A stretch of 64,000 bases of DNA from Cytophagales bacterium (GTDB lineage Bacteria > Bacteroidota > Bacteroidia > Cytophagales > Cyclobacteriaceae): contig JAFLBQ010000006.1 of the NCBI GenBank assembly GCA_017303805.1, positions 186,001 to 250,000 of the forward strand. Reading direction: 5' to 3'. This document shows positions 11,198-62,738 of the stretch, in pieces. The notes beneath the pieces are model-generated. The model was given only the letters and a program-made list of their open reading frames with translations, searched no databases and was not told the origin of the DNA. Positions within the stretch are counted from its first letter, which is position 1. Each line of letters starts with the position of its first letter. The position numbers were made by a program, and so were the translations under genes.

Positions 11198-11209
11198 AGT
11201 TTATTTCAG

Positions 11210-42823: not shown

Positions 42824-42859
42824 ACTCTTTATTGTTTTAAGTTTTATGTAGTTAAATTT

Positions 42860-45152: not shown

Positions 45153-45161
45153 TGTTTTACT

Positions 45162-45797: not shown

Positions 45798-45801
45798 TTC
45801 G

Positions 45802-46443
45802 TCAAATTGTTTCGTATTGTTTGTGCATCCTTTCAACAGAACGTGTTTCGCGTTCTCGCTCCCGGGCAATCAATCTCACATCGCTATCGAACGACTGCAC
45901 GAAAGCATGTTTGTCCAGCATGTCGTCATATAACCTGTCGATGCGCGCTAACCGCTCATCATCTTTCATCTCCGTCTCGTTCGACCGGATAATTGTCAGC
46001 AGTTCGGAGATTGAAGCATCACACAGAAATAGCATGTTGGAATACACAGCTGCCACATACCGGATTTCTTCGGGCGTAAAGTATTCGTTGTTCTTGCAGA
46101 AATTATTCACCCGTTTTATATTCTGGATGATGTAAACCTGGAAGGCTATGATATCGGCCACCTTCGCTGTATTCTTAATGTGTGGGTTGACATTCTTGAG
46201 AGATCCAAAGAAGTCACGGTGTAAATTGAAATCACCGTTCTTGATGTTGTGAATGGTGGTGAGTCCTTTGTCTGCTATCTCGTAGCCTTTTTTCAGGTAA
46301 CCGAGATAGACCCTTAGCAAAGCAATCTGCTTAACGAGGTATTTCTTCTGCGTCTTCTTTTGCTTGAACCATTCGTCCCAGTTTTGCGCTGGTGAGGTTG
46401 TACTTAATAATAATCCTGTTACCATGATGAATAAAAATTTCAT
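45802..46443 (-). CDS. TraI/DUF4141-position exported helical protein, copy B
   Basis: A 213-residue exported protein (signal cleaved near PAQ). It aligns along its length with copy A: GYEIADKGLTTIHNIKNGDFNLHRD-like, split here as GYEIADKGLTTIHN, then DDERLARIDRLYDDMLDKH and a C-terminal HKQYETI. The 4-bp gap between the two suggests a tandem duplication followed by divergence. Confidence 0.72.
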   Translation of the reverse strand: MKFLFIMVTGLLLSTTSPAQNWDEWFKQKKTQKKYLVKQIALLRVYLGYLKKGYEIADKGLTTIHNIKNGDFNLHRDFFGSLKNVNPHIKNTAKVADIIAFQVYIIQNIKRVNNFCKNNEYFTPEEIRYVAAVYSNMLFLCDASISELLTIIRSNETEMKDDERLARIDRLYDDMLDKHAFVQSFDSDVRLIARERERETRSVERMHKQYETI

Positions 46444-46453
46444 AATTCAGTAT

Positions 46454-46861
46454 TTAAAGTTTCAGACTTCTTTTTCGCGGGCCGACCAGTGAATTAATGT
46501 TCTCCCGAGTTGGCATATCTTCGTTACTTTTCAGGCGGGTTTCGAAAGTTCTGACAGGATTAAAGGAACGGTCGACCACATACTTTGCGTCCACTTTATC
46601 AATTCCAAAACCATGACCTTTATCGTATCGCACCTTGAAATCACATTGCACATACGGACTATCTTCATCTCTCCAGAGTGAATACGTTGTGAGATAAAAT
46701 GAAGGAATGTGAGTTTCGCCCTGAAGCATTTCCATGAGATGCTGATGCAGCGACTCTCTCAACTTACCGGGAAACGAGGAATTACAAAGGAAGTGACCGT
46801 CAAACCCCTTCTCATTCAATAGCTTTTCCAGTTCATCGATATGTAAACCAAGTCTTCGCAT
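46454..46861 (-). CDS. Small soluble protein in tra region, unknown
   Basis: A 135-residue protein without signal or helix; I recognise no family. Features seen are a helical start (GLHIDELEKLLNEKGFDG), a strand WRDEDSPYVQCDFKVRYDKGHG and a basic end (GPRKRSLKL). It lies between paralogue copies B and C and is likely part of the tra transcript. Confidence 0.55.
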   Translation of the reverse strand: MRRLGLHIDELEKLLNEKGFDGHFLCNSSFPGKLRESLHQHLMEMLQGETHIPSFYLTTYSLWRDEDSPYVQCDFKVRYDKGHGFGIDKVDAKYVVDRSFNPVRTFETRLKSNEDMPTRENINSLVGPRKRSLKL

Positions 46862-46869
46862 ACTTTACT

Positions 46870-47568
46870 TTATTCCAGCCCGTATAATTTTTTTACTACC
46901 AATACTTCGTGTTCATCCTTGGCCCGGTTCATACTCAGTTGAATATTCTGGTTGTTGAACTGTTTGAGATCAGCATAGTTTTGTTCAATCTGGTCACCGG
47001 CTTTGTTGATGATCTCCAGACGCTTAGCATCGGTCATCTGCGTTTTGAATGAATTGATCACTAAAAGAATTTGATCGAGGTTGTACACACTCTCATTCAG
47101 TATCCCGGTGTACACACGATACATGTAGTCGATCTCTGATCTGGTGAAGTGCTTGTCCTGGTTGATCATGTGCCAGGTGAACCTATACTCTTCAATGATC
47201 TGCTGTTGACGTTGAAGGATCATTTTGATCCTCTTATAAGTGGCAATAGTGTTCCTAACCTTCCAAAGTTCATCGTAATACTTTTTGTATAACTGCCGTT
47301 GGCGTTCGGTCCATTGAGCAATCTCATTGAGCTTTAGTTTGGAAAGTTTGTTTTCCAACACCTTAGCTGCGTTCTGCAACGCAATGGTTTTATTCTGAAG
47401 CCGCTGGATCATCAGATCAACGGCTTTGATTACTTTCTTTACACCTTCCTGAATGATCTTGGCAATAGGAATAGCGGCATGGCTATCCTGAATGGGGGTG
47501 ACTGTTAATGTCAGCATTCCGATAAGAAGGGTAAAAATTGTTTTTCTTATTCGATTCATAGAAATCAT
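46870..47568 (-). CDS. TraI/DUF4141-position exported helical protein, copy C
   Basis: A 232-residue protein; I take the start at 47568 (MISMNRIRK), 5 bp after the traG stop. A much longer in-frame reading overlaps traG and is rejected. It has a signal peptide (cleaved near SHAA), long helical coils (VLENKLSKLKLNEIAQWTER) and the C-terminal pattern TMDAKRLEIINK-like, then VVKKLYGLE, shared with copies A and B. The function is inferred only from its place. Confidence 0.72.
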   Translation of the reverse strand: MISMNRIRKTIFTLLIGMLTLTVTPIQDSHAAIPIAKIIQEGVKKVIKAVDLMIQRLQNKTIALQNAAKVLENKLSKLKLNEIAQWTERQRQLYKKYYDELWKVRNTIATYKRIKMILQRQQQIIEEYRFTWHMINQDKHFTRSEIDYMYRVYTGILNESVYNLDQILLVINSFKTQMTDAKRLEIINKAGDQIEQNYADLKQFNNQNIQLSMNRAKDEHEVLVVKKLYGLE

Positions 47569-47572
47569 CGGT

Positions 47573-50050
47573 TTAAGCTTTTCCGTTGCGCATGTCATTG
47601 GCCAGTTGAGCGATTCCTTTTTTGATATCACCGTTCCATTTTTTGGCATACGCCTGCACTTTAATTTTTTCTGATTCTTCCGTAGTGTATGCCAGGTATT
47701 CTTCGAGAGAAACTTCGGTGGCATACACTTTAGACAGCATTCCCCCCAGGCTGATGAAGACCTCTTTGTATTTCCGGGAAGGATCGTTGGCCTTGTTAAT
47801 GGAGAGCACAAGGGCTTTCTCTTTCTCAGTGAGCCCGAGCAGTTGTTGTATCAGGTCGAACTTGTTCTGGTACTTGCTCTGGTCAAGCAAAATCTTGCAG
47901 TCGGAGTTGTTGATGATGGCTTGCTTGACAATGGGCGAACTAATGATGTCTTCAACTTCCTGTGTCACCACAATGGCTTCCCCGTAAAACTTTCGCACAG
48001 TCTTGAACAGATACTTGATATACTCTGCCATACCTTCCTTTGCGATAGCTTTCCAGGCTTCTTCGATGAGTATCATCTTGCGCATACCCTTCAGTTTGCG
48101 CATCTTGGAAATGAACACCTCCATGATGATGATCGTAACCACGGGGAACAGGATCGGATGATCCTTGATATTGTCCAATTCGAAGACAATGAAACGTTCT
48201 TTAAGCAGTTCCAGATTTTCCGTAGCGTTCAGCAGATAGTCAAATTCACCGCCTTTGTAATATGGGCGCAACACGTAGAGGAAGTTTTCCACATCGAAGT
48301 CTTTCTCTTTCACCCGATCTTCCTTCAGGATGCCGACAAATTCATCACGGAGGAAGTCATAAAAAGTATTAAAACAAGGGAAGAGTTTTTTATCTGTCTC
48401 CAACTTCTCATAGTACAACTTCAGCGCTATGGACAAGGCCACATATTCTGAACGGTTGAAGGTTTCATCATCCTTCTTCCACAAAGCCAGCAACAGGGTC
48501 TTTATGCTTTCCTTTTTCTCGGTATCCAACACGTCTCCTTGTCCGATGTAGAATGGATTAAACCGAATGGGGTTAGCCTCATCATAGGTGAAGTAATATC
48601 CATTTACCAAATCACATAGTCCTTTGTAGGAATGACCTACATCCACCAGCACGATATGTGTGCCCTGCTCGTAGTAAGATCGTACCATGTGATTAGTGAA
48701 AAATGACTTCCCGCTGCCGGAAGGACCGAGAATGAATTTATTTCGATTGGTGCAGATGCCTTTTTTGACAGGCTCGTCCGAAATGTCGACATGAACAGGC
48801 TTGCCAGTCAGCCTGTCGCCAAGTCGTATGCCTACAGGACTAACAGAAGACTGATAGCTCGTTTCCAGGTTCAGAAAACAAGTAGCCTGTTCTGCGAACG
48901 TATCAAAAGTATCATTCATGGGGAAGTCGGCTTCATTGCCGGGCAGGCCGGCCCAGAATATTTGTGGTGCTCCATCGGTTTCCTGTCTTGCAATGGCGTC
49001 CATCTGGGCAAGTGCCGATGAAACTTGTGTTTTAAGTTCTTTCAGTTCTGTTTTATTGTCTGTCCAAAGTAAGATGTTGTAATGGGCTTTGACAGGCAGG
49101 CGTTGTGATGAAATGGCTTCATTCAGAAAATCATTCGTTGCATCACGACTGATAGCATTTTCGCGGGAATATGTAGCCAGCGATTGTAACCTGAGTCGTT
49201 TACTTTCAAGCTGTTTAATAGTCTTGTGTGCGTCCTCGATGAAGATGTATTGGTTATAGATATGATCACAAGACAACAATTGGCCTAAGGGTGAGGCAAA
49301 ACCAACACTGAACTTGGTCTTGTCAGTGGAGTATTTGTCATAGTTGATCCTTGAGCCGCATAATGCGGGAAGGTCTTCGACATCCGACAACGAATACAGT
49401 TGACAGTGCAGATCGCCAACTTTCAGATCATCCTTGAAGTGGATGTCCTTGATCATGGGTTGATCTGTTTCAGAAAGCAAATAGCAGTAGCGCTCCAATA
49501 AACCTGGTTTCCTGTTATTACCTACTAATTCATCGTCCGTTATCCTTGTCAGTTTTACAAATCCACTGTCTTTGAGTATCCGTTCAAACTGTCCTGCACC
49601 ATCCAGGAACTCCTGCATGCGCTGTGGATTTAGCGGGCCTTCAGGTACAATGCTCCTGCGGATCAGGTTGGAGAAAACAGAGTTGGATGGTTTTCGATTT
49701 GCTGGTTTTCGAGTGAGCATGATATAGCACTTGTGATCCAGGTAAGGGCGTTCATTAAAAAACTGTTCGCTTGATCGCGATAGGAACGAATTCTCCTTTC
49801 CTTCAAATTGGGGTTGATGTTTCCTCGAAAGAAACCAATCCTGCTTATGGAACACTGTATTGTTGGGAAGCACTTTGATGGCTTTAACCAACACCTGATG
49901 AAAGGCTTCGTACTCCTGATCAGATAAGGTGAAAATCTCCGGAAGAGTCACGTCAAAAGCCAGCGTTACATCGCCCTGCTTCGACAGGATGCAGTCGTGT
50001 TCTACCTTGTAGATCGGGAATACTTTATGAAATTCAATCTCCTGTGCCAT
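47573..50050 (-). CDS. traG: Conjugation ATPase TraG (VirB4-type)
   Basis: An 825-residue cytosolic ATPase powering the mating channel. Walker A is GPSGSGKS at 442-449. The Walker B and relay region MILIEEAWKAIAKEG and TQEVEDIISSP are present. The N-terminal domain with the HKVFPIYKVEHDC start is typical of the Bacteroidetes VirB4/TraG. It is full length. Confidence 0.92.
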   Translation of the reverse strand: MAQEIEFHKVFPIYKVEHDCILSKQGDVTLAFDVTLPEIFTLSDQEYEAFHQVLVKAIKVLPNNTVFHKQDWFLSRKHQPQFEGKENSFLSRSSEQFFNERPYLDHKCYIMLTRKPANRKPSNSVFSNLIRRSIVPEGPLNPQRMQEFLDGAGQFERILKDSGFVKLTRITDDELVGNNRKPGLLERYCYLLSETDQPMIKDIHFKDDLKVGDLHCQLYSLSDVEDLPALCGSRINYDKYSTDKTKFSVGFASPLGQLLSCDHIYNQYIFIEDAHKTIKQLESKRLRLQSLATYSRENAISRDATNDFLNEAISSQRLPVKAHYNILLWTDNKTELKELKTQVSSALAQMDAIARQETDGAPQIFWAGLPGNEADFPMNDTFDTFAEQATCFLNLETSYQSSVSPVGIRLGDRLTGKPVHVDISDEPVKKGICTNRNKFILGPSGSGKSFFTNHMVRSYYEQGTHIVLVDVGHSYKGLCDLVNGYYFTYDEANPIRFNPFYIGQGDVLDTEKKESIKTLLLALWKKDDETFNRSEYVALSIALKLYYEKLETDKKLFPCFNTFYDFLRDEFVGILKEDRVKEKDFDVENFLYVLRPYYKGGEFDYLLNATENLELLKERFIVFELDNIKDHPILFPVVTIIIMEVFISKMRKLKGMRKMILIEEAWKAIAKEGMAEYIKYLFKTVRKFYGEAIVVTQEVEDIISSPIVKQAIINNSDCKILLDQSKYQNKFDLIQQLLGLTEKEKALVLSINKANDPSRKYKEVFISLGGMLSKVYATEVSLEEYLAYTTEESEKIKVQAYAKKWNGDIKKGIAQLANDMRNGKA

Positions 50051-50053
50051 AAG

Positions 50054-50374
50054 TTAGTTTTTGAGTTGAATGCAAACTTTTCGGGAGGTTGACTTGATAA
50101 AATCCGGGAGGCTTCGCTTTGCCATTTTCTTCAAGAGGCCGTACTGACCATACTTGTCGCTCATCCGGTAAACAGTCATGAACAAGAGCACACCAAGCGT
50201 CAGCGTAAGTGCGAGACAAACAAACATGTTCACCCCGATGATGTAGAGCGCTGCAAACAGGATTAACAGGCCGATGAGTCCGATCGCGAGGTATGCGATA
50301 TACTGCGCCTTGAGGCCTTTGAACTCAATCGGCTTGTTAATACCCTTGTTGATTTTGTAAACGCTTGATGCCAT
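50054..50374 (-). CDS. traF: Conjugation protein TraF (DUF4133, VirB3-like)
   Basis: A 106-residue membrane protein from the ATG at 50374, which shares its A with the traE stop (TGATG). It starts MASSVYKINKGINKPIEFKGL, has two helices (IAYLAIGLIGLLILFAALYI, VCLALTLTLGVLLFMTV) and a basic C-terminus. The pattern is that of DUF4133/TraF. Confidence 0.87.
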   Translation of the reverse strand: MASSVYKINKGINKPIEFKGLKAQYIAYLAIGLIGLLILFAALYIIGVNMFVCLALTLTLGVLLFMTVYRMSDKYGQYGLLKKMAKRSLPDFIKSTSRKVCIQLKN

Positions 50375-50703
50375 CAGATTCCAAAGAATGATCGTAACAC
50401 GGTGGCCACAATGACCAGGAACACACAACTGCCAAACCATGCGGCTGCGACTTTCCCTGTATCGGGATCACCGCTGTTCCACTTCTGGTAAACTTTCACG
50501 GCTCCTACGAGCCCAAGGATGGCTCCGATGGCATACATTAGGTTAGTGCCTGTAGCGAAATAGCTCCGCACACGCATGGTAGCTTCGTTGATACCGGCAT
50601 TGCCGTCTTGGGCAATGGCAAGCGCATAGGTGATGAGGTACACAATCAGGGCAAGTCCGAAAGCCTTGCCTTTTTGAATAGTGAATTGAACTGCTCTTTT
50701 CAT
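50374..50703 (-). CDS. traE: Conjugation protein TraE (DUF4134, VirB2-like)
   Basis: A 109-residue protein: a signal (LALIVYLITYALAIAQ), then NEATMRVRSYFATGTNLMYAI, and a last helix with VYQKWNSGDPDTGKVAAAWFGS, the DUF4134 signature. It is the likely pilin-like or channel-core subunit, with the usual gene order traE-traF-traG. Confidence 0.88.
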   Translation of the reverse strand: MKRAVQFTIQKGKAFGLALIVYLITYALAIAQDGNAGINEATMRVRSYFATGTNLMYAIGAILGLVGAVKVYQKWNSGDPDTGKVAAAWFGSCVFLVIVATVLRSFFGI

Positions 50704-50725
50704 AGGACTTAAATTTGTTTGATGA

Positions 50726-51319
50726 TTATTGATTATTTACTCCGGTGTTTTCCTGCTGTGGCCACCACGTTTTGACTTCATTTAGTTCGATTAGAAATTC
50801 ACAATGCTCCTTGCAGGAATTGTAAATGAATGCTGTGATCTCAGGCTCATGCGTAGTTTGAAACAGGTCAGGATAATTCGATAGTAGCGTGCGAAAGAGT
50901 TCAGCACACTCAGCCTTGCTGCCGACAGCGACAACTTCTGTGAGCGTATTGATTTCTTCGAGAAGGGTTGAAACAGATTTAAGTATGGCTTCATCCGCTT
51001 CGCTTGGTGCCGCTTCCGTAATCGGCTCTTCCGGTTCCAGTGCAGTAACTACGCTCAAACTTTCTGTTTCACTTTTTTCTTCACGTGGAACATTTTCTGA
51101 TTGACGTCCACCATATTTCACTGAGCCCATGAGTTCAATAGATTCATTTGAATCAAGTTGATTCTCTCTCACATTAGCGTTCGTGAGATTTGGCTTCTTT
51201 TGTTTGAAAATGTTAGTGATCTCGCTGCTGTAAAGTAGCAGCAGGGTGATAACATAATAGCCACCGATAAGAAAGGCGATGGTTGAAATGAACTCCTGCC
51301 AGGAAATGGATTCGAGCAT
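50726..51319 (-). CDS. Membrane-anchored protein upstream of traE, unknown
   Basis: A 197-residue protein with one helix (TIAFLIGGYYVITLLLLY, about 11-28), an acidic disordered middle (REEKSETESLS, EPEEPITEAAPSEADEA) and a helical C-terminus ending WWPQQENTGVNNQ. I recognise no family. It is 22 bp upstream of traE and probably opens the tra transcript. Confidence 0.6.
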   Translation of the reverse strand: MLESISWQEFISTIAFLIGGYYVITLLLLYSSEITNIFKQKKPNLTNANVRENQLDSNESIELMGSVKYGGRQSENVPREEKSETESLSVVTALEPEEPITEAAPSEADEAILKSVSTLLEEINTLTEVVAVGSKAECAELFRTLLSNYPDLFQTTHEPEITAFIYNSCKEHCEFLIELNEVKTWWPQQENTGVNNQ

Positions 51320-51499
51320 TAGCTTCCGTGATTGATTACGGAAGCGAAGGTGCGTGTCAGAAAAATCTAATATTCACAAGTTGGTACCAAGGTGGGTGAT
51401 ATATTTTCTATTTCCTCTTGGACCGATCGTCAGGCTGCTTGGTTCGTTTCCTTATTAATCAATTTACTTCACGGGCATGAGCATCTTAAACTGAATGAA

Positions 51500-51547
51500 A
51501 AGCAAAGGGTAATTTGACCGGATCACCAGCTCTTCTACCCTTTGCTT
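51500..51547. promoter_or_regulatory. Perfect 12-bp inverted repeat in the recombinase-tra gap
   Basis: AAGCAAAGGGTA (51500-51511) and TACCCTTTGCTT (51536-51547) pair exactly with a 24-base loop. It is between the recombinase stop (51578) and the first tra gene (51319), on the downstream side of the recombinase. It may be a terminator, a tra operator or a recombinase-related site; no T-run follows. Confidence 0.45.
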
Positions 51548-51577
51548 GTGGTCGTGATAGTAGTAACGTTTTTCAAA

Positions 51578-52198
51578 TTAATTCTCTACTAAGCAATTAT
51601 TAAACTGTTCATGATTCTTTACAAACCCAGAAACTGTAAGTCGATGAACACCTAGTATTCGTGCTATTGCACTATAGGATACCTTTTTATCCAACAACTC
51701 TTTAATTTTCTTTTCTTGCCCTGTCAATTTTGTCTTAGCAGACTTCCTACCTACAGGTCGACCCAGAATGACCCCCTCTGCTTTTTTTCTTGCCAGCGCT
51801 TCCTTCGTTCTTTGCGAAATTAGATTTCGTTCAATCTCCGCTGAAAGTCCGAATGCAAAAGCAAGAACTTTTGAGTTGATGTCACTGCCTAAACGATAGT
51901 TGTCTTTTATAGTCCAAACCTGAATATCTCTATTCATACATTCGTTAAGGATTGCCATTATCATCAATAAGTTTCTTCCCAGTCTCGACAATTCTGAACA
52001 AATAAGTACATCATCCTTTCGCATTTTTTTTAAAAGCTTGCCTAATTTTCTTTCCTGAATGTGCTTCGAACCGGAGATAGTTTCTTCAATCCATTTGTCA
52101 ACTACCAACACACTTTTTTCGCAAAATCGGTTGACTTCGTAGCGTTGATTTTCAACTGTTTGTTTGTCGGTGCTGACGCGAATGTAGCCGTAGATCAT
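51578..52198 (-). CDS. Serine recombinase, invertase type (Mpi/Hin-like)
   Basis: A 206-residue small serine recombinase. The catalytic Ser9 lies in GYIRVSTDKQ. SRLGRNLLMIM and the helix-E region ISQRTKEALARKKAEGVILGR-like (read as QRTKEALARKKAEG then GRPVGRKS) are conserved. The C-terminal helix-turn-helix is YSAIARILGVHRLTVSGFV. It is of the Bacteroides Mpi-type DNA-invertase length, not a large transposon recombinase. Its start is 97 bp from a 23-bp inverted repeat whose partner is inside a methyltransferase gene, so inversion of that segment is the obvious job. Confidence 0.9.
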   Translation of the reverse strand: MIYGYIRVSTDKQTVENQRYEVNRFCEKSVLVVDKWIEETISGSKHIQERKLGKLLKKMRKDDVLICSELSRLGRNLLMIMAILNECMNRDIQVWTIKDNYRLGSDINSKVLAFAFGLSAEIERNLISQRTKEALARKKAEGVILGRPVGRKSAKTKLTGQEKKIKELLDKKVSYSAIARILGVHRLTVSGFVKNHEQFNNCLVEN

Positions 52199-52294
52199 AG
52201 TGTTTTAAGGTTTAAGTTTATTAGTGGAGAAAGTGTATAAATTAAACCAAAACAGACGATAGAAAACCTGAGCATTTTTTTATGCAGTTAAACC

Positions 52295-52317
52295 AGCGTT
52301 TTTGTTAGACAGCATGG
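52295..52317 (+). repeat. Left inverted repeat of the invertible segment
   Basis: A 23-bp sequence beginning AGCGTTTTTG and ending AGACAGCATGG; its exact reverse complement is at 54030-54052. It lies directly upstream of the silent specificity cassette and continues its reading frame (SVFVRQHG). The bases on either side differ from those at the other copy, so the match is limited to 23 bp, as expected of a recombination site. Confidence 0.9.
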
Positions 52318-54029
52318 GGTGGCTAACGAATTTCATACTTCAGATACCTGGGCCATATTGTCCCCAATAGAACAGCGAATCAAGCGGAAAATTGAGCTGA
52401 TCGGAACACCACTTAAAGAATGGGAAATAGCTATCAACTATGGGATCAAGACCGGCTTCAATGATGCCTTTATAATTACTGGAAAGGAGCGAGCCGAATT
52501 AATAAAGCTTGATCCAAAATCAGACGAAATTATACGACCTATTTTGCGTGGCAGGGACATAAAGAGATACGCCAATAGCTTTGCGGATCTGTGGTTGATC
52601 AACACACACAATGGTATCAAGGAAAAGGGGTTAAAACCCATTCAGATAGAGGATTATCCTGCCATTAAAAAGCATCTGGATAAGTACTATACCGAGCTTG
52701 AGAAACGTGCAGACAAGGGTGACACTCCATATAATTTGAGGAACTGTGCTTATATGGACGATTTTTCTAAACAGAAAATTGCTTGGGGAAATCTGAACCT
52801 TCGGGCATCCTATACATTGGCAGAGGGTGGTATGTTTGTCAATGCGCCATGCCCAATGATAGTACCAGGCAATCCATACCTTCTGGCTGTTCTAAATTCA
52901 AAACTAGGCGACTACTATGTACGAAGCCTCGGAGTTATTAGGAACGGAGGCTATTTTGAGTACAAACCAATGTTCATTGAACAATTGCCTGTTCCAGTTA
53001 TTGATCAAACAAAACAGAAACCCTTTGCAGATTTGGCACTTCAAATTCTTGAGGCAAAAAAGTCTAAGTCAAAAACCGACAAGCTTGAGAGCCAACTCGA
53101 TCAAATGATTTTCGACCTTTACAAATTATCAGATGTCGAAATTGACTATCTCCTTTCAGATCTCGACCAAATCGAAGTTACAAATGAAGTTGACTTCGTC
53201 AGTTGAGAGGTTAAATAATGAAAAGATTACATCATCAACTTGATTCTCAAGATCAGAGGTATCCAATCCATTTTTTTTGCGCTTTTGAATGTCCATCACT
53301 AGTTCCCCCAATACTTTTTCATCACGGCTGGAAGGAGTCTGAGGAATGCAAATTTGCTCTATGTACTGCTTTATCCATCTCCTTGTACCCACTCCAGACG
53401 TGGCAGCTATTTTTCCGAAATACCATTCGCACAATTTGGAGTCAAGAAAGGAAAGAATATAAGGCAGTCTGTCACCAATGAGAAAGAAAACCGTGTTGTT
53501 TAAGTAATAGCCCTCGGTATCCAGACAAAAATTTGCGTGATCAGTTAATTCAATCCATATGATTTTCTGTTTAGAAAAATCGTCCCAATAGCTTATGCTA
53601 TCTTGGGTTTCAAACCACTGATTATTAGTCTTTTTTCTAGCTCCGGCTTCGCCAGTTTGCTTCAATCTATCGTACCCAAAACTAAGAAGGTGCTGTTTTA
53701 CCGAGGGATAGTCATCAATGTTCAATTTGAGGCTGGGGAACGTGGCGATAAGCCAAAGGTCTGCAAATTGATGGCTATAGCGTTTAATATCACGCCCCCG
53801 CAATATCGGTCGTATAATTTCGGCTGATTTTGGGTCAGCCTTGATTAGCTCTTCCTTTTTTTCTCGATTAATGATAAATGCGTCATTGTATCCGGTTAGT
53901 ACGCCACGGAAGATGTCAATATCCCAATCCTTTAATGGCACTCCGGCTAGCTCAATTTTATCCTTTATTCGCTGCTCAATGCCTGATAAAATAGCCCAGC
54001 TTTGGTTCGAACTGAATCCACAAAAACTT
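52318..54029. mobile_element. Predicted invertible DNA segment exchanging methyltransferase specificity ends
   Basis: A 1,712-bp segment bounded by the 23-bp inverted repeats. It holds the active 3' end of the methyltransferase gene (minus strand) and the silent alternative end (plus strand), convergent with a 51-bp overlap. Inversion would join the alternative end in frame to residues 1-834 and give a protein of about 1,129 residues. The recombinase lies just outside. Confidence 0.85.
52319..53206 (+). CDS. Silent alternative target-recognition domain cassette
   Basis: Encodes 295 residues homologous to residues 840-1124 of the methyltransferase at 53156-56530 but on the other strand. The first about 120 residues are similar (WAILSPIEQRIKRKIEL versus WAILSGIEQRIKDKIEL, then IRPILRGRDIKRY), after which the two diverge, as expected of different recognition domains. 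It has a GTG but no good start region, and reading upstream passes straight through the inverted repeat in frame. It has no catalytic motifs. It is a donor, not an independent enzyme. Confidence 0.85.
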   Translation: MANEFHTSDTWAILSPIEQRIKRKIELIGTPLKEWEIAINYGIKTGFNDAFIITGKERAELIKLDPKSDEIIRPILRGRDIKRYANSFADLWLINTHNGIKEKGLKPIQIEDYPAIKKHLDKYYTELEKRADKGDTPYNLRNCAYMDDFSKQKIAWGNLNLRASYTLAEGGMFVNAPCPMIVPGNPYLLAVLNSKLGDYYVRSLGVIRNGGYFEYKPMFIEQLPVPVIDQTKQKPFADLALQILEAKKSKSKTDKLESQLDQMIFDLYKLSDVEIDYLLSDLDQIEVTNEVDFVS

Positions 54030-56530
54030 CCATGCTGTCTAACAAAAACGCTCAAATTATTTAACACCTTTTCGGTAACTGTACAGACAAATGTATTCCC
54101 CTTGTTTTTACCCTTAGAAAAAAGCAAAATATTGGTGACAACAGTTGCAGACTCAAATATTTTCTGCTCCGGAAAATCAATTAGCAGAACTGGGTTAGTC
54201 TTTTCGGCAAGGAAACCCCGAGTACTTTTACCGTAGCCAGCCCGCATCCATTTATTTGAAGTGATGTAACAAAGGTTCCCATTCGGCTTCAATAATTGCC
54301 ATCCCCTTTCATAGAACAGGGAATAAATGTCACCCATTCCTTCAAAGGTTTGATAGTTGGCCTTCTCATATAGTTTGGCTAAATCTCCGCCATCTTTTTG
54401 TAATTGTATGTACGGTGGATTACCAATCACAATATCAAAACCTCCATGTTCAAAGATTTCATAAAACCACAAATGCCAAAGGAAGTACGGATAAATCTTA
54501 CTCTTCTGAATTTGACTCAATTCTTTCTCCAATCCTTTTAACCGTTGAGCTTCCTTCGTATTTTTTTCTAGTAAAGTATTTAATTTTTTTAAACTGTCTT
54601 CTTTCTTCTTTTTGTCAGCGTTTGTTTTTGGAGTCTGTTTATTTACGGTTGCCAGCTTCAGTTTTGTGTCATTAAGGGTTTCGGTGTTGCGTCTTATTTT
54701 GTCTTGAACTTGCCCGGTTATGAACTTATCCACTACGTCATCAATACTGTGTTGCAATTCTTTTTTGATCTCACTGTTATCAGCAGCAAAGTATTTTTTT
54801 ACTAGGGTCTTCAATCGATCAATGTCCACTTTACTAAACTTATTCTCATCACGAAAAAGAGTAGTTTCTTCTTCTAGGCGAACACATAAATCAAGGTCTT
54901 CATAAGACTCCAATAGGCTGTTGCCTTGCATGATTTTATAATCAAGATTTGGCAAGGGTCTTGGCTTGTCCTCGTCAACGACCAGGCTTAACCAAAACCG
55001 TAAACGTGCAATATCTACGGCACCTTTTTCAATATCCACTCCATAGATAGAACCCTGGATAATATTCTCCTTTACTTTTGCTGGATTCCAGACTAAGCCA
55101 CTTTCGTAGGCAATTGCTTCTTTAATTGAAAATATTTCAAGCAGAAGCCCCATTGGAAACGCTCCCGATCCAATAGCTGGGTCACAGATTTTAACCTTGT
55201 CAAGGACGTTGTCAATTTTCTTTAATACTGAATTATTAATTTTTTCAACCTCCTTGTATCTAACAAGCTTCTCAACTATTTCTTTTTGAAGTCCAGACTC
55301 TGTTACTATGTATTCCATCAAGCTCTCCTGGCACATATAGTGAACAATTTCCTTCGGAGTATAGAAAGTACCTCTATCCTTATTGTCCTCCAGAAGATTT
55401 TCGAATATATGTCCAAGCATCTCAGGGTCAACCGCAATCGTATGATCGTCTGGACTATCTTCATGGACTGTAAAATTGAAAGCCTGTAAGAAATCGAGGA
55501 ATCCCCTTTGCTTTGGATCCTCATTGCTATCAGGATTATGGAAAAGCCTTGGTTCTAAAGTGAGTGTCTTCTGATCAATGTCTTCCTTATCAAACAATCC
55601 TCCATTCAAAAATGGAATCTTGACCTTTGCCTTATTGGGCAGCACAAAATCGTCTTGAGGCCGTCCCTTATGATTGTTTAATGTGTCGAAAAATAAAACC
55701 TTAAGCCATTTCTCATAAAACACTTCATTGGCTCCGCTACCCAAGTATAGATTCATTAAAAAATCCGGATCGCCATCTTTGTAGTCGGTGGAGGAAGCCC
55801 CAAGCCATCCCTTCTTTTGAACAAAAGAGAGAAACACTAATCGCCCAAGAAGCTTTTTGACGAAATCGCGGATTAGTTTCTCATTGGCATTAAATGCAGA
55901 TTTCTTGAAATTAGATTGGCTTAGGTATTGTAAAAATTTTTCATAGTGCAACTTATATTCATCAAAGAATGCCTTACTCAGTCTTTCAACCGAGAATGCT
56001 TTAACGAGGGCTTTTATGTTAATTTCTTTCTCGATCGAAAGAGCTTCAAATCTTTCTGCTGCCGTCTTACAACTTTCGCCTGGCCCCAGAAGGAAGGTAT
56101 ATCGTTTCGCGTTCGTTGACTTCTCTTTGACACCTTCTGATGTAAGCTCACTATCTTTTGCCACGAGAGTAAGCCTCCATACCTTCTTATTGTCAGAGGA
56201 GACAAAATTGACCAAGGCTGCCTGCCCTGAAGTGAGAAGCTTCCGGGCATAATGTTGAATTGCTACTTTACTCTGCTCAATTCGTACTTTGGATTGAAGT
56301 ATGATTTCATAGCATGTTATTTCTGCACCATCTTCTAATATTATTGTAGCATAGACTGAAACAGAATTTATTACCTTTTTTTCAGATGCAGTTGGCTGTA
56401 TGGATGCCGGTGCTGCGGATTGGAGAAGTTTAAGGTTGCTATTGAATAACTTACTTAGTACATCTTTTGAAAACAATAACCTATCATAAGGCCTTTGTAA
56501 TGATTGTTGAAGTTGTATTCTACTTGCCAT
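53156..56530 (-). CDS. Eco57I-type DNA adenine methyltransferase/restriction enzyme, phase-variable C-terminus
   Basis: A 1,124-residue protein. The N-terminal about 400 residues include a YEIILQSKV segment that could be a decayed or cryptic nuclease and a LLGPGESCKTAAERF stretch. The SAM motif is DPAIGSGAF (450-458), and the catalytic NPPYI (704-708) marks N6-adenine methylation. A coiled linker lies at about 600-675. Residues 835-1124 are the target-recognition region. The 23-bp inverted repeat encodes residues 827-834 (SVFVRQHG). It is 3 bp downstream of the helicase gene. Whether it cuts DNA itself or only methylates is unsettled. Confidence 0.88.
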   Translation of the reverse strand: MASRIQLQQSLQRPYDRLLFSKDVLSKLFNSNLKLLQSAAPASIQPTASEKKVINSVSVYATIILEDGAEITCYEIILQSKVRIEQSKVAIQHYARKLLTSGQAALVNFVSSDNKKVWRLTLVAKDSELTSEGVKEKSTNAKRYTFLLGPGESCKTAAERFEALSIEKEINIKALVKAFSVERLSKAFFDEYKLHYEKFLQYLSQSNFKKSAFNANEKLIRDFVKKLLGRLVFLSFVQKKGWLGASSTDYKDGDPDFLMNLYLGSGANEVFYEKWLKVLFFDTLNNHKGRPQDDFVLPNKAKVKIPFLNGGLFDKEDIDQKTLTLEPRLFHNPDSNEDPKQRGFLDFLQAFNFTVHEDSPDDHTIAVDPEMLGHIFENLLEDNKDRGTFYTPKEIVHYMCQESLMEYIVTESGLQKEIVEKLVRYKEVEKINNSVLKKIDNVLDKVKICDPAIGSGAFPMGLLLEIFSIKEAIAYESGLVWNPAKVKENIIQGSIYGVDIEKGAVDIARLRFWLSLVVDEDKPRPLPNLDYKIMQGNSLLESYEDLDLCVRLEEETTLFRDENKFSKVDIDRLKTLVKKYFAADNSEIKKELQHSIDDVVDKFITGQVQDKIRRNTETLNDTKLKLATVNKQTPKTNADKKKKEDSLKKLNTLLEKNTKEAQRLKGLEKELSQIQKSKIYPYFLWHLWFYEIFEHGGFDIVIGNPPYIQLQKDGGDLAKLYEKANYQTFEGMGDIYSLFYERGWQLLKPNGNLCYITSNKWMRAGYGKSTRGFLAEKTNPVLLIDFPEQKIFESATVVTNILLFSKGKNKGNTFVCTVTEKVLNNLSVFVRQHGSFCGFSSNQSWAILSGIEQRIKDKIELAGVPLKDWDIDIFRGVLTGYNDAFIINREKKEELIKADPKSAEIIRPILRGRDIKRYSHQFADLWLIATFPSLKLNIDDYPSVKQHLLSFGYDRLKQTGEAGARKKTNNQWFETQDSISYWDDFSKQKIIWIELTDHANFCLDTEGYYLNNTVFFLIGDRLPYILSFLDSKLCEWYFGKIAATSGVGTRRWIKQYIEQICIPQTPSSRDEKVLGELVMDIQKRKKNGLDTSDLENQVDDVIFSLFNLSTDEVNFICNFDLVEI
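54030..54052 (-). repeat. Right inverted repeat, inside the methyltransferase gene
   Basis: Exact reverse complement of 52295-52317. In the methyltransferase frame it encodes SVFVRQHG (residues 827-834), at the boundary between the catalytic core and the target-recognition region, so crossing over here keeps the frame. Confidence 0.9.
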
Positions 56531-56533
56531 ATC

Positions 56534-59500
56534 TTAAGAGAAGCTTTGAGTAAGAACAATCTTTGGATTTATTATTCCCCTCGGTTTGGGTTCCTGCACC
56601 GTAGGCTCAGTTGCCCTTGTTGATAGATCGTAACGATCAAGCACTTGCGTGAATAAAAGTTCAATAAATTTTTCTGGAGTGCTCATTACCCTTTCATTAG
56701 TTGTAAAAAAATCGTTTATCTCCTTTGGGAATCCCTTTGAAGCGAATGTTCCTTGCTTGATTAATTCTAGGGTTCTTTGAAGCACCTTTCTTTTTTGCTC
56801 AGTAGGAGCAATTTTGACAATTGCATTTATGTTGGTGATTGCTTTATTTTCAGCGGGGCTTAAATTCTTTCTTGAAACTGTCTGAATATTTTCCTGATTC
56901 TTTTCAGTTTTAAAAAACTCCATAGCCGCAAGTGCTTGCTCGTGGTGCAGATCATGAAGTTTTATTGATTTTTCGTTTTGAGTTGCCCTGAAGATTTTAA
57001 CTGCCTGTAAAAAGTTGAGTTCAATATTTGTAAAGTCTGGGGTGACTAAGCAGAAAACGCCAGGGTGGTTTTCACTTTTAAGGTAAGCTAGCGAAGTGTT
57101 AACCATTGGATAATTAAAATCGCCAGTATCCGTGTTCAAAATTGTCAGTTGGCCTTCTAAGGCTTCACGTCCGCACCGTGCTTTATTTGGGATTGAGAAA
57201 ATTTCAGCGAATCTTTTTGGTTCTTTTTTCTTGAAGTCCCTCAGCTCATTTAGATATTTAAGAATTTCGCTCTCCTCCTTTTGAATTTTATTCCCAAACA
57301 GCGCACCCTCACCTTTTTCTTCAAGCAGTGAAAAAATCTTATTATCTTCTCCAAATGCTGTATGGAAAGCTTGGAGTTTTCTGAGAGCCGTATTTACTAA
57401 TTGAATCTGTGCATCACCGTGTGCTGAGGGATAGAAATTATAAACGAAAATCTGTTTTGCTCTTGAACCAATTCGATTAACTCTTCCAATGCGTTGCATT
57501 AGCCTTGTTGAATTCCAAGGAACATCATAGTTAATGATCACATTACTTCTATGGAGATTAATTCCTTCAGCCAGAACCTCCGTGGTAATGACAATATCAA
57601 ATTCGTTTTTCCACTTCTCCTCTTCCAAATTAGCATCAAAATTTTCCCGAAGTTTTTCTTCAACCGACTTACGATTTTCTGCACTTACAGTTAGAATTTT
57701 ATAGTCACCTAATTTTTTAAATTGTGCAGTAAGTTCTTCAGCAGTTTCCTTTGATTCAGAGAATATGACGAGCTTACCGCTCTGATTCTTCTTAGGATCG
57801 AAAAAATTCTTGCTTACTTGATTTGCAAACTCAATAAGTTTAGGATCAATGGTAACCTTACTCCATCGATCGATCAAATCATCTACCTTGTCTTTGTCCT
57901 TTAGTAGTAGGATGTAAAATTTCTTTTCAAAATCCGTTGCCTTAAACTCCCGATTATTTCCACCAGCCTTGTTAATCTTACTTTCAATTTCTTCATAACT
58001 CAATCCTTCTTCAAGAAGCTTATTAATATCCAAGTCAGGTGCTATGAAGATCCGATCATCATCAAACATTGTAAGCATGTTGTTAATGGCCTTCTGAAAG
58101 CGACTTAATGATTGCCTAAAGGCAAAAAAGCTACTCTCCAAACGCTTCACCAAAAGCACCCTCATAATGGCTGATAGCCGTGTGGATATTGAACTTACGT
58201 CACCGTATATCTTTCTATCCTCATCTTTCGATAGGAATTCTATTGCCCGATACCTGTAATATCCAAGACCTTCTATCTTCGCCCCACTTTCATCAATGCC
58301 AGTTATTAAGCTTACCGTGTCAAGAAACAATGTGGTTAGGTCATCTTCTAAATAATAATAAAGGGCAATAGGATCATCAACCCTGGGGAACACTATTCCT
58401 TGGCTATCTAAATCCTCTAAGTAAGCAGTGTTGTTCTCAATGTCTGTCCTTGTTCGTCTAATTACCAATGGCTCTATAACATCGTCTCTAAGTTTCTGAA
58501 AGAGACTTTTGAGTTTTTTAATATTTAAATTCTGTTCGGATGAGAGTTTTTTGTATTGCTCATTGATTGGTTTAAAGTAGTCTTGCAGGTTCTTAATGCT
58601 TTCAAGAGTGCTGTTCCTTTTATCTTGGAATAGGTACAGTTGATTCTCAATGTCCTGCGGTCTGTTATTTAAAGGTGTTGCTGAGATGAGAATTACTTTC
58701 TTTCGCGTATCACCATCCTCCGAGGGGCGCGACCTTGGCATTTTACAGATTTCCTGGAGTTTCAGGTACATATCCGTGTAGTCATTCCTAAACTTATGAG
58801 ATTCATCGACAATGATAAGGTCAAACTTATCAGCGCGGGAATGAGTGTAATTAGTTTCATCTAAAACTTGATGAAGACTTCCGATAGTAATGAACTCGAA
58901 ATGATTCTTTACTTGAAATTCTTCTGTCGTTCGTCTCCAGTTTGCTTCAAGTGCTGGTGGGACTACCACCAGCACTTTAGAATGCGTTCCGTTTTCATAG
59001 ATGAATTTTTTAATAACCATGCAGGCTATGATAGTCTTCCCTAAGCCAACTACATCTGCTAGGATAAATCCGTTGTGCTTCATCATTATGGCATAACCTT
59101 GATTTGCAGCATCCGACTGATATTTTAATCGCATGAATTTGTCGGGCAATAACAAATCAATATTATAGGGATCATACTCTACTCTCTTTCCAAAATATTC
59201 TATCAACATTTTGATGTAGAGTTCAAACGGAGTGAAGTCATCCTTTAAATATGTTTTTCTCTTAATCTCTTTTGCTTCCGCATGAAGAATGGGTACAGAC
59301 TCATCCCAAAGTTTATTGAATTCAGTTGTCGAGAATTTAACATCTTCAAAATCTCTTAGGCTAACATTGAATTCATAATTGGACTCAGGATTTGAACCAA
59401 GTCCGGAATCTGTAAGGTTTGATGAGCCGGTTATTACTTCACATGGCGCGTGCTCATTAAAATTAATCGGCCTGAAAATGTAGACCTTCGCATGTATTTT

Positions 59501-59890
59501 CTGCTTTGGGTGCGCTCTTAATTCTATTTTGTCATTGATCAGGTCGTCTATAAACTGGATAATCCCTTTCTCAGTGACTTCAGCATATTCGGCATCTTGA
59601 ATATTTTGAATGACATCTTTTAAAAAAGTATCTTTCGTTTCGTGCGGATTCTCAATAAAGTACTGTCCTCTGTCATGATATTTTTTTGTCAATGCATCAA
59701 CATTTATCCCTAAAAGAATCCTAACCTTAGGAATGCGGTCAAGGAATGGACGAACTTTGAAATACCCAGAAGCACGGAAATACCCTACCAGAGCATCGAA
59801 GAACTGAATGCTCTCTACATGCGTAAAAACTCCTTCGAATTTTTTAAGAAGGCTATTACCGTCCCTATTAGTAAAAAATTTGGTAGACAT
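56534..59890 (-). CDS. PLD-nuclease / SNF2-type helicase fusion
   Basis: A 1,118-residue protein. Residues about 1-200 are a phospholipase-D-type nuclease half-site: IHAKVYIF (His133, Lys135) and TGSSNLTDSG. Residues about 255-860 are a superfamily-2 helicase with GLGKT (282-286), DESH (362-365), SATPLNNRPQDIENQL, and the C-terminal motifs EGINLHRSN and QRIGRVNRIGS. The tail of about 250 residues is unassigned. It is translated just before the methyltransferase, so the pair probably forms a translocase-nuclease/methylase defence unit reminiscent of DISARM or type I-like restriction. Confidence 0.88.
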   Translation of the reverse strand: MSTKFFTNRDGNSLLKKFEGVFTHVESIQFFDALVGYFRASGYFKVRPFLDRIPKVRILLGINVDALTKKYHDRGQYFIENPHETKDTFLKDVIQNIQDAEYAEVTEKGIIQFIDDLINDKIELRAHPKQKIHAKVYIFRPINFNEHAPCEVITGSSNLTDSGLGSNPESNYEFNVSLRDFEDVKFSTTEFNKLWDESVPILHAEAKEIKRKTYLKDDFTPFELYIKMLIEYFGKRVEYDPYNIDLLLPDKFMRLKYQSDAANQGYAIMMKHNGFILADVVGLGKTIIACMVIKKFIYENGTHSKVLVVVPPALEANWRRTTEEFQVKNHFEFITIGSLHQVLDETNYTHSRADKFDLIIVDESHKFRNDYTDMYLKLQEICKMPRSRPSEDGDTRKKVILISATPLNNRPQDIENQLYLFQDKRNSTLESIKNLQDYFKPINEQYKKLSSEQNLNIKKLKSLFQKLRDDVIEPLVIRRTRTDIENNTAYLEDLDSQGIVFPRVDDPIALYYYLEDDLTTLFLDTVSLITGIDESGAKIEGLGYYRYRAIEFLSKDEDRKIYGDVSSISTRLSAIMRVLLVKRLESSFFAFRQSLSRFQKAINNMLTMFDDDRIFIAPDLDINKLLEEGLSYEEIESKINKAGGNNREFKATDFEKKFYILLLKDKDKVDDLIDRWSKVTIDPKLIEFANQVSKNFFDPKKNQSGKLVIFSESKETAEELTAQFKKLGDYKILTVSAENRKSVEEKLRENFDANLEEEKWKNEFDIVITTEVLAEGINLHRSNVIINYDVPWNSTRLMQRIGRVNRIGSRAKQIFVYNFYPSAHGDAQIQLVNTALRKLQAFHTAFGEDNKIFSLLEEKGEGALFGNKIQKEESEILKYLNELRDFKKKEPKRFAEIFSIPNKARCGREALEGQLTILNTDTGDFNYPMVNTSLAYLKSENHPGVFCLVTPDFTNIELNFLQAVKIFRATQNEKSIKLHDLHHEQALAAMEFFKTEKNQENIQTVSRKNLSPAENKAITNINAIVKIAPTEQKRKVLQRTLELIKQGTFASKGFPKEINDFFTTNERVMSTPEKFIELLFTQVLDRYDLSTRATEPTVQEPKPRGIINPKIVLTQSFS

Positions 59891-60279: not shown

Positions 60280-60639
60280 TTACCGAGTCCTATCGAATAA
60301 CGATTGGCTCCAGCGCACTTTTCCTTTTCGGATATGGAAATGGCTTTTACAGCCAACCGTTCTCCAGATAGAAGGACAAATGCTTATCCGTCTCCATCTG
60401 GTTGAAAACCTCCAACGCGGGCTGGCCTTTTTTAAAGTGTTGAGATTAATTGTCTGGCCACAGCCGCATGGGCATGCAAAAGTTATCATCCAATAGTTAG
60501 GCTTCTCACCCACGATATAGATAATCCCATCGGAAACTTCTTCAGGCACATCGTTACAGAATTTGTATCTATAAAAAGTCCGATCCTTGTGACGGATTTC
60601 AGATAAGATATGGCCTATATAATTAAACACGTTTTTCAT
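60280..60639 (-). CDS. DUF6527-family zinc-binding-like protein
   Basis: A 119-residue protein from the ATG at 60639, which overlaps the E1/JAB stop by 17 bp. It has ACPCGCGQ (Cys56, 58, 60) and GCKSHFHIRKGKVRW (Cys97, His100), a likely zinc site, and PSIWRTVGC, typical of DUF6527. This family is encoded with bacterial ubiquitin-like E1/E2 genes. A RING-like or substrate-adaptor role has been suggested for treble-clef partners; not shown here. Confidence 0.8.
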   Translation of the reverse strand: MKNVFNYIGHILSEIRHKDRTFYRYKFCNDVPEEVSDGIIYIVGEKPNYWMITFACPCGCGQTINLNTLKKASPRWRFSTRWRRISICPSIWRTVGCKSHFHIRKGKVRWSQSLFDRTR

Positions 60640-62050
60640 TTTCAAAACCCGATAGTTCCACCAAGTCCAAGAATATTTTTCTATCGCCATATCCGACTTT
60701 GGATTTAAGAAATGCATCTTCTTTTAATCTGTCTTCAGACAGATGAATGAAACAGCCTTCAGTTATGTCAATTGTTGTTTGAGCGAATTCTTTAGGGTGA
60801 TCAACTTTGTAAGGATGAATTCGGTTAAGAAACTCATTGACCGCATAGCTTGCGATCATCATATTAACACTGATAACGGCAGGCCTATTAACATTGAGAT
60901 TCTTGATGTAGGAGTTCTTGACCAAATCTGGAAATTGGTCAGGATACATTCTGTATAAACCGGCTGCTTTCAAGTCTTCTGAATCATATAACCCTCTCGA
61001 CATTAATGAGGACTTTCCCGGCTGGATGTAGTTTACTGTTCCCACAATCTTCGAAATACCGCCCATCCCATCGGCTTCGAGTTTAATTCCTAAATCAAAA
61101 TATGGTATAAGATAGTAGGTAGAAATTCGATTGATTAAATCTCTGCCATCAACAGAGTCGACACAACCAAACAGAATGTCACACTCAGCCAGCTTTTTCA
61201 GACATACAATATCATCGTAGATATTTTTTGAGAAAGGTTCTACTCGCGTTCCTAGGTCAAAACCGGTAATTACTTCAGTTAAAACATCAACTTTATACCG
61301 TTGTTGTTTTGCATCCGACCGCTTTGTATTTAAAATCCTGTTCAGATTCTTTAGCTCAACTTTATCCGGATCAACCAGAACCAATTCACCAACGCCAAGC
61401 CGAACCAATTGTTCAACAACGGGGCTTCCGGTACCTGAACACCCCACAACTCCGATTCTCAATTTCTTTAATAGGTTAAATGTTCCTTCACCAAAAGCCT
61501 GAACTGTTCTTTTGCCGATCTCCAACTCAGCGGATTCATTGCCTGAGTAACGCCAGATTTTTATAGCATCACCTGCGATACATACTTTGGCAAATGCATC
61601 TGTTTCTAAGCCAGGGTAAAATACTCTGCCTAAAATCCTTCCATCAGGAAGCATAATTGAACTGGCATGAGGAAAGTCTGTATCGAACCACCCAAAAATG
61701 GATGAAAAGAGTCGGTTGTCAGAATCATCATCGAGCGATGAAAATTGTTCGTAGCCTCCTGGATGACTATGAATTTTCAGTACAGCATAATTATATTTTA
61801 TGGCCTTCTCTAACAATGAGGTTAACCGTTCGGTTTTCCACAACACATAATCCGGTGTTCGATGGCATTCCTCATAAGGGATGAAAATCACTTCGTTTAC
61901 AACGAGTTTATGAACCTCATCATTTATAAGGCGGCCACATAAAGCAACTGCAACTGCTTCCAAGCCGTCACCGGGATACAAATGACCCCTGATTTGTTCA
62001 TAATGAAAACCTGAAATGTTAAGCTGGTACTGCATTGGGCTTTTTCTCAA
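60623..62050 (-). CDS. JAMM deubiquitinase-like / E1 activating enzyme fusion
   Basis: A 475-residue protein with two enzymes. N-terminal JAMM protease: Glu53, then HSHP (His94, His96) and Ser105/Asp108 at exact JAMM spacing. C-terminal E1/ThiF: GVVGCSGTGSP nucleotide loop (200-210), VDPDKVEL (Asp227) and KNLNR with Arg238. Candidate catalytic Cys residues follow (such as Cys296 in FGCVDSVDGR). It overlaps the E2-type gene by 32 bp. It could adenylate a ubiquitin-like tail and also cleave it. Confidence 0.88.
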   Translation of the reverse strand: MRKSPMQYQLNISGFHYEQIRGHLYPGDGLEAVAVALCGRLINDEVHKLVVNEVIFIPYEECHRTPDYVLWKTERLTSLLEKAIKYNYAVLKIHSHPGGYEQFSSLDDDSDNRLFSSIFGWFDTDFPHASSIMLPDGRILGRVFYPGLETDAFAKVCIAGDAIKIWRYSGNESAELEIGKRTVQAFGEGTFNLLKKLRIGVVGCSGTGSPVVEQLVRLGVGELVLVDPDKVELKNLNRILNTKRSDAKQQRYKVDVLTEVITGFDLGTRVEPFSKNIYDDIVCLKKLAECDILFGCVDSVDGRDLINRISTYYLIPYFDLGIKLEADGMGGISKIVGTVNYIQPGKSSLMSRGLYDSEDLKAAGLYRMYPDQFPDLVKNSYIKNLNVNRPAVISVNMMIASYAVNEFLNRIHPYKVDHPKEFAQTTIDITEGCFIHLSEDRLKEDAFLKSKVGYGDRKIFLDLVELSGFENEKRV

Positions 62051-62738
62051 ATTCCTGTCTGAACCAATAACTTACCAAACTCATGTGCGTACCAAAATTA
62101 TCGACTCCCTCTCGCCATGGATTTTGGCCGGTACGATGGCGTGACCAACGCTGAAATTGTTTTCCATCAATTTGCTGAATGGATGTCGCACCTATTTGCT
62201 TTCCATCTTTCCTTGATAGGGCTGGCAGGAAATAGGCCATGTCCAATTGAGTTCTTGGGTAACCAGGCTCGACCTTTATTGCCACAGTCACCCTGTCCAC
62301 ATTATAACCGGGGCAGACTGGGTAATCATATATGACAACCCATTGGCCTGTAGATTCAGAAAGGGTCTCCCACTGGAGACCCAAACTCTTAAGAAATTCA
62401 ATATCCTCATCCAAAAGTGCAAATTGCCTTCGCTGCTCTTGACCTTCAGTCTGATCAAGTGGAAGCGTCATGAATTTCTCGATGCCCGGCTTTGTAAAAC
62501 AGACCTGTTCATCCAAACTTATTGGTTCCACTTTTCCTCCTCTCAATTTCAAGTTGAGCTGATATTTTTCAGGTGGAGTCTTCTTAGCCAAGACGAGTAA
62601 CTCCCGACCGGTCATGCACTCATTGTCCACCACATAAAAATCCCGGTCGATTTTGATGCGGTACTTCTTTTCTTTCGGCACTGGTCTGCCTTCCCTTGAG
62701 AAAGCTTCCAGATCGATAATTTCGGTTTCTTGCGACAT
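62019..62738 (-). CDS. Ubiquitin-like domain / E2-like fusion (multi-ubiquitin family)
   Basis: A 239-residue protein. Residues about 24-95 form a ubiquitin-like beta-grasp domain of the multi-ubiquitin type (YRIKIDRDFYVVDNECMTGREL, split as YRIKIDRDFYVV and TGRELLVLAKK; then KPGIEKFMTLP). Residues about 110-230 are an E2-like fold of the prokaryotic E2 family E: YDYPVCPGYN, VEPGYPRTQLDMAYF, RWSRHR and FGTHMSLVSYW. Cys142 is the only Cys in the E2 part. LRGG occurs inside the beta-grasp (65-68), not at its end. Domain fusion means no free diglycine tail. Confidence 0.82.
   Translation of the reverse strand: MSQETEIIDLEAFSREGRPVPKEKKYRIKIDRDFYVVDNECMTGRELLVLAKKTPPEKYQLNLKLRGGKVEPISLDEQVCFTKPGIEKFMTLPLDQTEGQEQRRQFALLDEDIEFLKSLGLQWETLSESTGQWVVIYDYPVCPGYNVDRVTVAIKVEPGYPRTQLDMAYFLPALSRKDGKQIGATSIQQIDGKQFQRWSRHRTGQNPWREGVDNFGTHMSLVSYWFRQEFEKKPNAVPA

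Follow-up and report, generated by a model that had tools for sequence, protein, structure and literature searches.

The locus raises the question of why a methyltransferase gene should be faced by a second, oppositely oriented specificity domain homologous to its own C-terminal end, with a recombinase gene adjoining the pair. The window, i.e., the whole 64,000-nucleotide stretch of Cytophagales DNA that was analyzed, was examined together with related loci, and a two-state ON/ON specificity switch operated by an Mpi-family invertase acting on 23-bp repeats is proposed, with a probability of roughly 0.87. In the proposed mechanism, the invertase would recombine the two 23-bp repeats and flip the segment between positions 52295 and 54052, by which one methyltransferase body of 826 residues could be fused in frame with either of two TaqI_C domains while the other domain would be left without a body. 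Each state would methylate a different DNA sequence and, with a PLD-SNF2 helicase, would probably restrict too.

All genes of the locus (51578–59890) lie on the minus strand, and the silent domain alone lies on the plus strand. The recombinase (206 aa, 51578–52198, minus strand) matches NCBIfam NF009949 and Pfam Resolvase, and its score against NF009949 (346.4 bits) is above the cut-off of 272, with the invertases of the related loci L127, L046, L120, and L104 scoring 316.4–333.0 bits; the serine recombinase of the preliminary description can be specified as a serine invertase of the Mpi family. The invertase start codon reaches to 52198, which leaves 97 bp to the nearer repeat, the distance originally given, and the predicted catalytic serine is residue 9, in the YIRVS motif. 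The silent specificity domain comprises 303 aa counted from the repeat (52295–53206, plus strand; own ORF 52319–53206), and the expressed specificity domain comprises the last 298 aa (53156–54052, minus strand) of an Eco57I-type adenine-specific methyltransferase of 1124 aa (53156–56530, minus strand) bearing DPAIGSGAF and NPPY motifs. Both domains match TaqI_C above the cut-off, and they are 42% identical to each other by tblastn. Next to the methyltransferase gene is that of the helicase partner (1118 aa, 56534–59890, minus strand), which matches Pfam PLDc_2, SNF2-rel_dom, and Helicase_C and carries HAK, GSSN, and Walker A motifs. The linkage to this PLD-SNF2 partner recurred in the relatives, where simple and strict patterns, in a set of 31 proteins of which two may be unrelated, detected HAK/HSK and GSSN in 29/31, Walker A in 31/31, the DExH box in 18/31, and motif VI in 23/31.

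The exact 23-bp inverted repeat reported earlier was confirmed at 52295–52317 (plus strand, head of the silent domain) and 54030–54052 (minus strand, within the methyltransferase gene), and both arms code for SVFVRQHG in matching frame, as residues 827–834 of the methyltransferase and at the head of the 303-aa open frame. A chance origin was ruled out by 200 dinucleotide shuffles of 49000–56500, in which the longest exact inverted repeat reached at most 16 bp (mean 12.25) compared with the 23 bp found. When the 1,758-bp segment 52295–54052 was flipped in silico, a methyltransferase of 1129 residues was obtained instead of 1124, and the former methyltransferase end was left as a 298-residue open frame; a full-length enzyme is obtained from each orientation, with which the ON/ON reading fits. 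The search for further copies of the site that had been suggested at the outset covered 4,285,222 bases on 13 contigs and, with up to three mismatches allowed, returned just the two known places. The pattern read backwards had no match in the same genome, nor was a second such invertase gene detected there at E 1e-5. The count of two places for the site and the single invertase gene, at those thresholds, led to rejection of a genome-wide master invertase. By-eye inspection of the 23-bp site for palindromic structure found nothing convincing, and a promoter scan of 51300–54300 gave 8 sites versus an average of 6.7 in shuffles, from which no conclusion was drawn.

By family, the TaqI_C domains would be target recognition domains. 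In the AlphaFold model of the full methyltransferase (pLDDT 72), a helix at residues 823–833 lies at the repeat, and those TaqI alignments that cover the catalytic part alone stop at model residues 851–857. The recognition domain is poorly modelled (residues 843–889 and 899–930 are under 50), and the model was therefore used solely to place the repeat where the catalytic part ends; a model of the silent domain alone (pLDDT 61.7) was set aside. Since the repeat falls at the end of the catalytic part and TaqI_C domains would recognize targets, a swap at this point should change the methylated sequence, and the two domains, judged from their families, would read different DNA sequences. The presence of Eco57I and TaqI_C in one chain, both above the Pfam cut-off, agrees with the Type IIG plan of an adenine methyltransferase and a C-terminal recognition domain in a single chain, and the best PADLOC model of the methyltransferase is REase_MTase_IIG (606 bits). 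No nuclease domain was matched by Pfam within the methyltransferase chain, and the PLD domain sits in the partner protein. A restriction role for the system is presumed, with the PLD-SNF2 partner as the likely restriction effector.

Comparison of two Cyclobacteriaceae relatives provided a natural counterpart of the in silico flip. The nearest named relative is the metagenome-assembled genome (MAG) SSA6 (CP058703.1, locus L046); G023, assigned to the window's own genus, very probably represents that genome too. The SSA6 locus has the layout and state seen in the window; both arms of the SSA6 repeat differ from those of the window at the same two positions, and the repeat is still perfect. The silent domain, used as query against 390 genomes of the order, retrieved the one-contig genome G431, from another genus of the same family, in which the locus (L166) shares with SSA6 an identical perfect 23-bp repeat. 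In L166, the methyltransferase body carries the silent-type domain of the window (91.7% identical to that of the window), and the expressed-type domain (72.9%) is silent beside the invertase. Across the 1,863-bp segment, SSA6 and L166 agree at 1851/1860 positions (99.52%) in inverted alignment versus 948/1703 (55.67%) in direct alignment, whereas the flanks are collinear on both the invertase side (697/697) and the methyltransferase side (393/399), and identity in 60-bp steps changes over at the repeats. The difference between SSA6 and G431 is a recent inversion between these repeats. Catalysis of inversion by the invertase of the window is implied by the reversed segment beside its counterparts in L046 and L166, and the adjacency of the gene to the 23-bp site strongly implies that this enzyme would make the flip. 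In L166, a Mutator-family transposase gene (10254–11543) is inserted in the methyltransferase gene upstream of the switch, so the flipped copy in G431 may be inactive.

A similar pair was encountered on the Lactococcus plasmids pJM1F and pUCCL629A, which carry the helicase, the methyltransferase, a specificity domain in opposed orientation, and an Mpi-family invertase whose protein is the same in both. The two plasmids agree at 2793/3000 positions (93.1%) in the upstream 3 kb and at 720/720 on the invertase side, while the segment between is 75.9% identical when reversed and 55.0% when compared directly, with the first five 100-bp steps being 97–100% identical in the reversed comparison. This pair is, by the same kind of alignment, taken as a second, independent case of reversal. 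Two further plasmids, pUCCL635A and pLLUC147A, have the methyltransferase and helicase, the stretch shown has no invertase annotation, and the switch appears to have been lost. Eight of 15 plasmid invertase records were examined, comprising two with the full layout, one variant, four without an annotated methyltransferase in the stretch shown, and one with the helicase and methyltransferase downstream and a transposase on the other side. The genome of the window is known in one orientation; the segment was found in both orientations, with breakpoints at the repeats, in close relatives and Lactococcus plasmids, and for the window's own strain we infer switching. The switch reading of the preliminary description is nevertheless supported by an inversion at exactly the homologous repeat between two close relatives, by the in-frame state of both domains, and by selection on the silent one.

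The arrangement is not confined to this genome. Wider occurrence was found in Bacteroidota and on the Lactococcus plasmids and, by contig titles, also in Ruminococcus bromii, an alphaproteobacterium, and other groups, although some of these are MAGs, which can be misbinned. Among the 80 closest invertase loci listed (species genomes), 26 have both opposed domains, 19 have only the opposed silent one, and 35 have none. In 17 of the 19 silent-only loci, the contig extends no more than 1.3 kb upstream of the invertase. Two of the 19 (L056 and L094) have a silent domain that is recognizable just over its first 81 and 98 residues, respectively. Where no domain was found in the place searched, less than 400 bp of contig is available there in 15 loci and there is room in 20, which indicates that not every relative of this invertase serves switching. 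In one of these 20 (L108, 6340–8704), a silent-type domain begins after the invertase gene, i.e., on the other side. Contig ends in these 80 closest listed loci are distributed unevenly: within 500 bp of the invertase they occur on the switch side in 28/80 and on the other side in 5/80 (Fisher p = 8.8e-06), and within 130 bp in 12 and 0, respectively. Contigs end 20–25 bases into the site in L057, L068, L088, and L114 and 9–15 bases into it in L076, L093, and L053, roughly the point at which branching of an assembly graph would be expected with both orientations among the reads; the evidence is indirect, as repeats inside the domains can also break assemblies.

An alternative explanation is that the opposed domain is a dead relic, i.e., a duplicated specificity domain left in place and now unused. 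The single orientation seen in the window's genome is what such a relic would give, and decay of the second domain in a relative, which the preliminary description had named as evidence against a switch, was indeed found: in L034 (G095) an IS4/5-type transposase (8910–9698) interrupts the silent domain while the invertase is still 88% identical, and L035 has a truncated second domain, with no matching outer repeat detected. These are, however, single lineages beside many intact ones. Between the window and SSA6, the silent domain gave dN 0.047 and dS 0.754 (ratio 0.062) and the expressed domain gave dN 0.134 and dS 1.173 (ratio 0.115), and the silent domain is thus, on this one pair of genomes, estimated to be under purifying selection. 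A domain without a body of its own that is kept as a working protein fits regular use. The perfect repeat, both arms of which changed together between the window and SSA6, and the reversed state in L166 also argue against decay, and on the grounds of selection and the reversed relatives the relic explanation was rejected as very improbable. For the helicase, methyltransferase body, and invertase, dS between the window and SSA6 is saturated. The silent domain dS (0.75) lies below that of these flanking genes, as if the domain had been exchanged more recently.

A further alternative accepts the flip as real and ascribes it to general homologous recombination between the similar domains rather than to the invertase. 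Such a process would be favoured by the uninterrupted identity over 249, 256, and 284 bp within the domains of some loci. In total, 32 loci were taken as full, namely 26 of the 80 closest listed together with the window, L033, L034, L035, L127, and L128; L033 was left out of the repeat statistics as very probably the same genome as L046, L115 had no anchor, and ten more, whose domain start lay beyond the contig or could not be located, were dropped, leaving 20 loci. Locus L168 is very probably the Rufibacter locus L120 again. Agreement between the two arms averaged 21.1/24 within a locus versus 16.7 when arms were re-paired, with 0 of 10,000 permutations as high, the permutations taking no account of relatedness among the loci. 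In contrast, the 30 bases outside the arms agree at only 7–16 of 30 in the same 20 loci, and in the window and in SSA6/G431 the outer repeat is a mere 23 bp, with identity beginning abruptly there, which counts against this alternative. Domains of at least 250 aa are obtained from both orientations in 17/20 loci; anchored on the site, the frame after inversion gives 231 aa in L034 and 299 aa in L083. In an 18-locus profile, from which L086 and L121 were left out, the excess of within-locus over between-locus similarity is greatest at SVFVRQHG (z 11.5) and has faded out some 40 codons further on, so the strongest peak is at the outer site, while the weaker peaks inside the domain at NDAFII, ADPKSAEIIR, and DFSKQKI (z about 4) count on the side of homologous recombination. 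The invertase adjoins the site in every full locus, although the loci were chosen by invertase. Taken together, recombination without the invertase is considered hardly probable. It is also conceivable that the switch is real and has its main role in gene regulation, as a phasevarion, and not in warding off phages or foreign DNA. Inverting Type I systems are reported, in the part of PMC7394358 that is available, to alter gene expression; in the present case, a PLD-SNF2 protein with nuclease-type motifs is co-conserved, and carriage on a conjugative element and on plasmids suggests defence cargo, with which a mainly regulatory role appears unlikely.

For the invertase-operated ON/ON switch, the number of crossover points also requires consideration. 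The single repeat pair of the preliminary description holds for the outer, non-homologous boundary and does not hold inside the domains, which contain further exact inverted repeats. The longest exact inverted repeat of the region is in fact an inner one of 24 bp, with one arm in the silent domain (52756–52779, plus strand) and the other in the expressed domain (53562–53585, minus strand), coding for the conserved motif DDFSKQKI, and a further 15-bp inverted pair is located at 52525–52539 and 53808–53822. The identical stretches of 249–284 bp mentioned above, in L034, L167, and L170, are bounded by inner motifs or by the outer site. On the Prevotella nigrescens plasmid locus L133 (8001–16131), a related invertase (60%) is accompanied by a full methyltransferase and, in the opposite orientation to it, two partial genes of Eco57I type, and exact inverted repeats of 34 bp and 18 bp both land at about 13988–14023, near the NPPY region of the full methyltransferase; L133 resembles a switch that has two silent cassettes and crosses over at another point. 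Because of the inner 24- and 15-bp repeats, the 249–284-bp stretches, the secondary similarity peaks, and the L133 plasmid, it is tentatively suggested, as a possible but rather doubtful extension, that the module is a multi-state specificity generator and not just a two-way switch, in which inner repeats at EIIRPILRGRDIKRY and DDFSKQKI may act as extra crossovers to reassort halves of the recognition domains, with more than one silent cassette in some relatives.

Among known systems, membership in BREX was rejected because the best PglX model (NCBIfam BREX-1 PglX) scored 91.9 bits against a cut-off of 500, and no other BREX proteins were detected among the 14 window proteins scanned. Membership in DISARM was likewise rejected, with the helicase scoring 141.2 bits against DrmD (cut-off 610). 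The pglX gene of BREX is reportedly varied by inversion. The accessible portion of PMC6326788 names a homopolymer tract for BREX PglX instead of inversion. Mpi of Bacteroides fragilis, a master DNA invertase, belongs to the same NCBIfam family (NF009949) as the invertase described here, which by comparison has one local coding target and no further site in its genome within three mismatches. In Type I hsdS loci, inverted repeats and recombination exchange target recognition domains, according to the excerpts available of PMC7394358 and PMC12456177, and the present locus resembles inverting systems such as SpnIII/cod of pneumococcus and hsd of Mycoplasma pulmonis, which in those excerpts change specificity with no ON/OFF state. 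Those systems possess a separate S subunit with two recognition domains, whereas a single domain is fused to the methyltransferase here and a PLD-SNF2 protein is its partner. PsrA, the pneumococcal invertase, is a tyrosine recombinase, in contrast to the serine invertase of this locus. Methylase_S had no Pfam match in the four proteins of the locus. Given the fused domain, the lack of a match to the S-type model, and the serine invertase, the locus is not a member of the inverting Type I restriction-modification systems.

Varying Type IIG enzymes are also known. Cj0031 of Campylobacter jejuni switches ON/OFF via a C/G repeat tract in the available part of PMC12456177, unlike the ON/ON inversion proposed here. 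In DOMO, described for Type IIG/Type I systems of Helicobacter pylori, recognition domains likewise move between positions at repeats, but this movement is between two S-subunit positions, by a recombination route left unnamed and with no invertase, in the portion of PMC3077401 available. The same 2025 review (PMC12456177) assigns, in its available sections, inverted repeats to Type I and simple repeats to Type II systems, and the inversion surveys PMC5903667 and PMC11892184, as far as their accessible text extends, name Type I hsdS genes. No serine-invertase inversion switch of a single-chain Type IIG-like methyltransferase was found in the partial texts of the literature searched, a collection that has subscription journals mostly outside it and leaves room for an earlier description. 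The known principle is inversion-driven specificity switching in Type I HsdS, and the new element is its single-chain, helicase-linked, serine-invertase form. The same invertase clade may serve hsdS genes too, as in L080 of Capnocytophaga leadbetteri (9335–9952), where a related invertase adjoins an opposed Type I Methylase_S domain.

Under the proposed mechanism, inversion as a means of switching methylation specificity would reach beyond Type I HsdS subunits to single-chain, helicase-linked enzymes, and a switch packaged with its serine invertase would constitute a portable unit. With opposite orientations present on two dairy Lactococcus plasmids, the switch can be tested using a harmless laboratory host, as can the rate of switching and the consequences for phages. 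The proposed mechanism also raises the question of how a cell survives a change of target when the marks on its genome are still the old ones. With respect to genomic setting, CTnDOT-type conjugation genes (TraM, TraJ, TraG P-loop, DUF4133, and DUF4134) occupy 41483–50703 on the minus strand, and since they lie on one side, the switch is located within or next to a conjugative element. The SSA6 invertase is followed by an apparent response regulator and sensor kinase, judged from their translations, and with such different surroundings in the window and SSA6 the module looks mobile. On the opposite side in the window, adjoining the helicase, the minus-strand genes at 60280–62738 encode a DUF6527 protein, a protein combining JAB and ThiF (E1-like), and an E2-like protein that contains a multiubiquitin domain, which together are a bacterial ubiquitin-like conjugation set.
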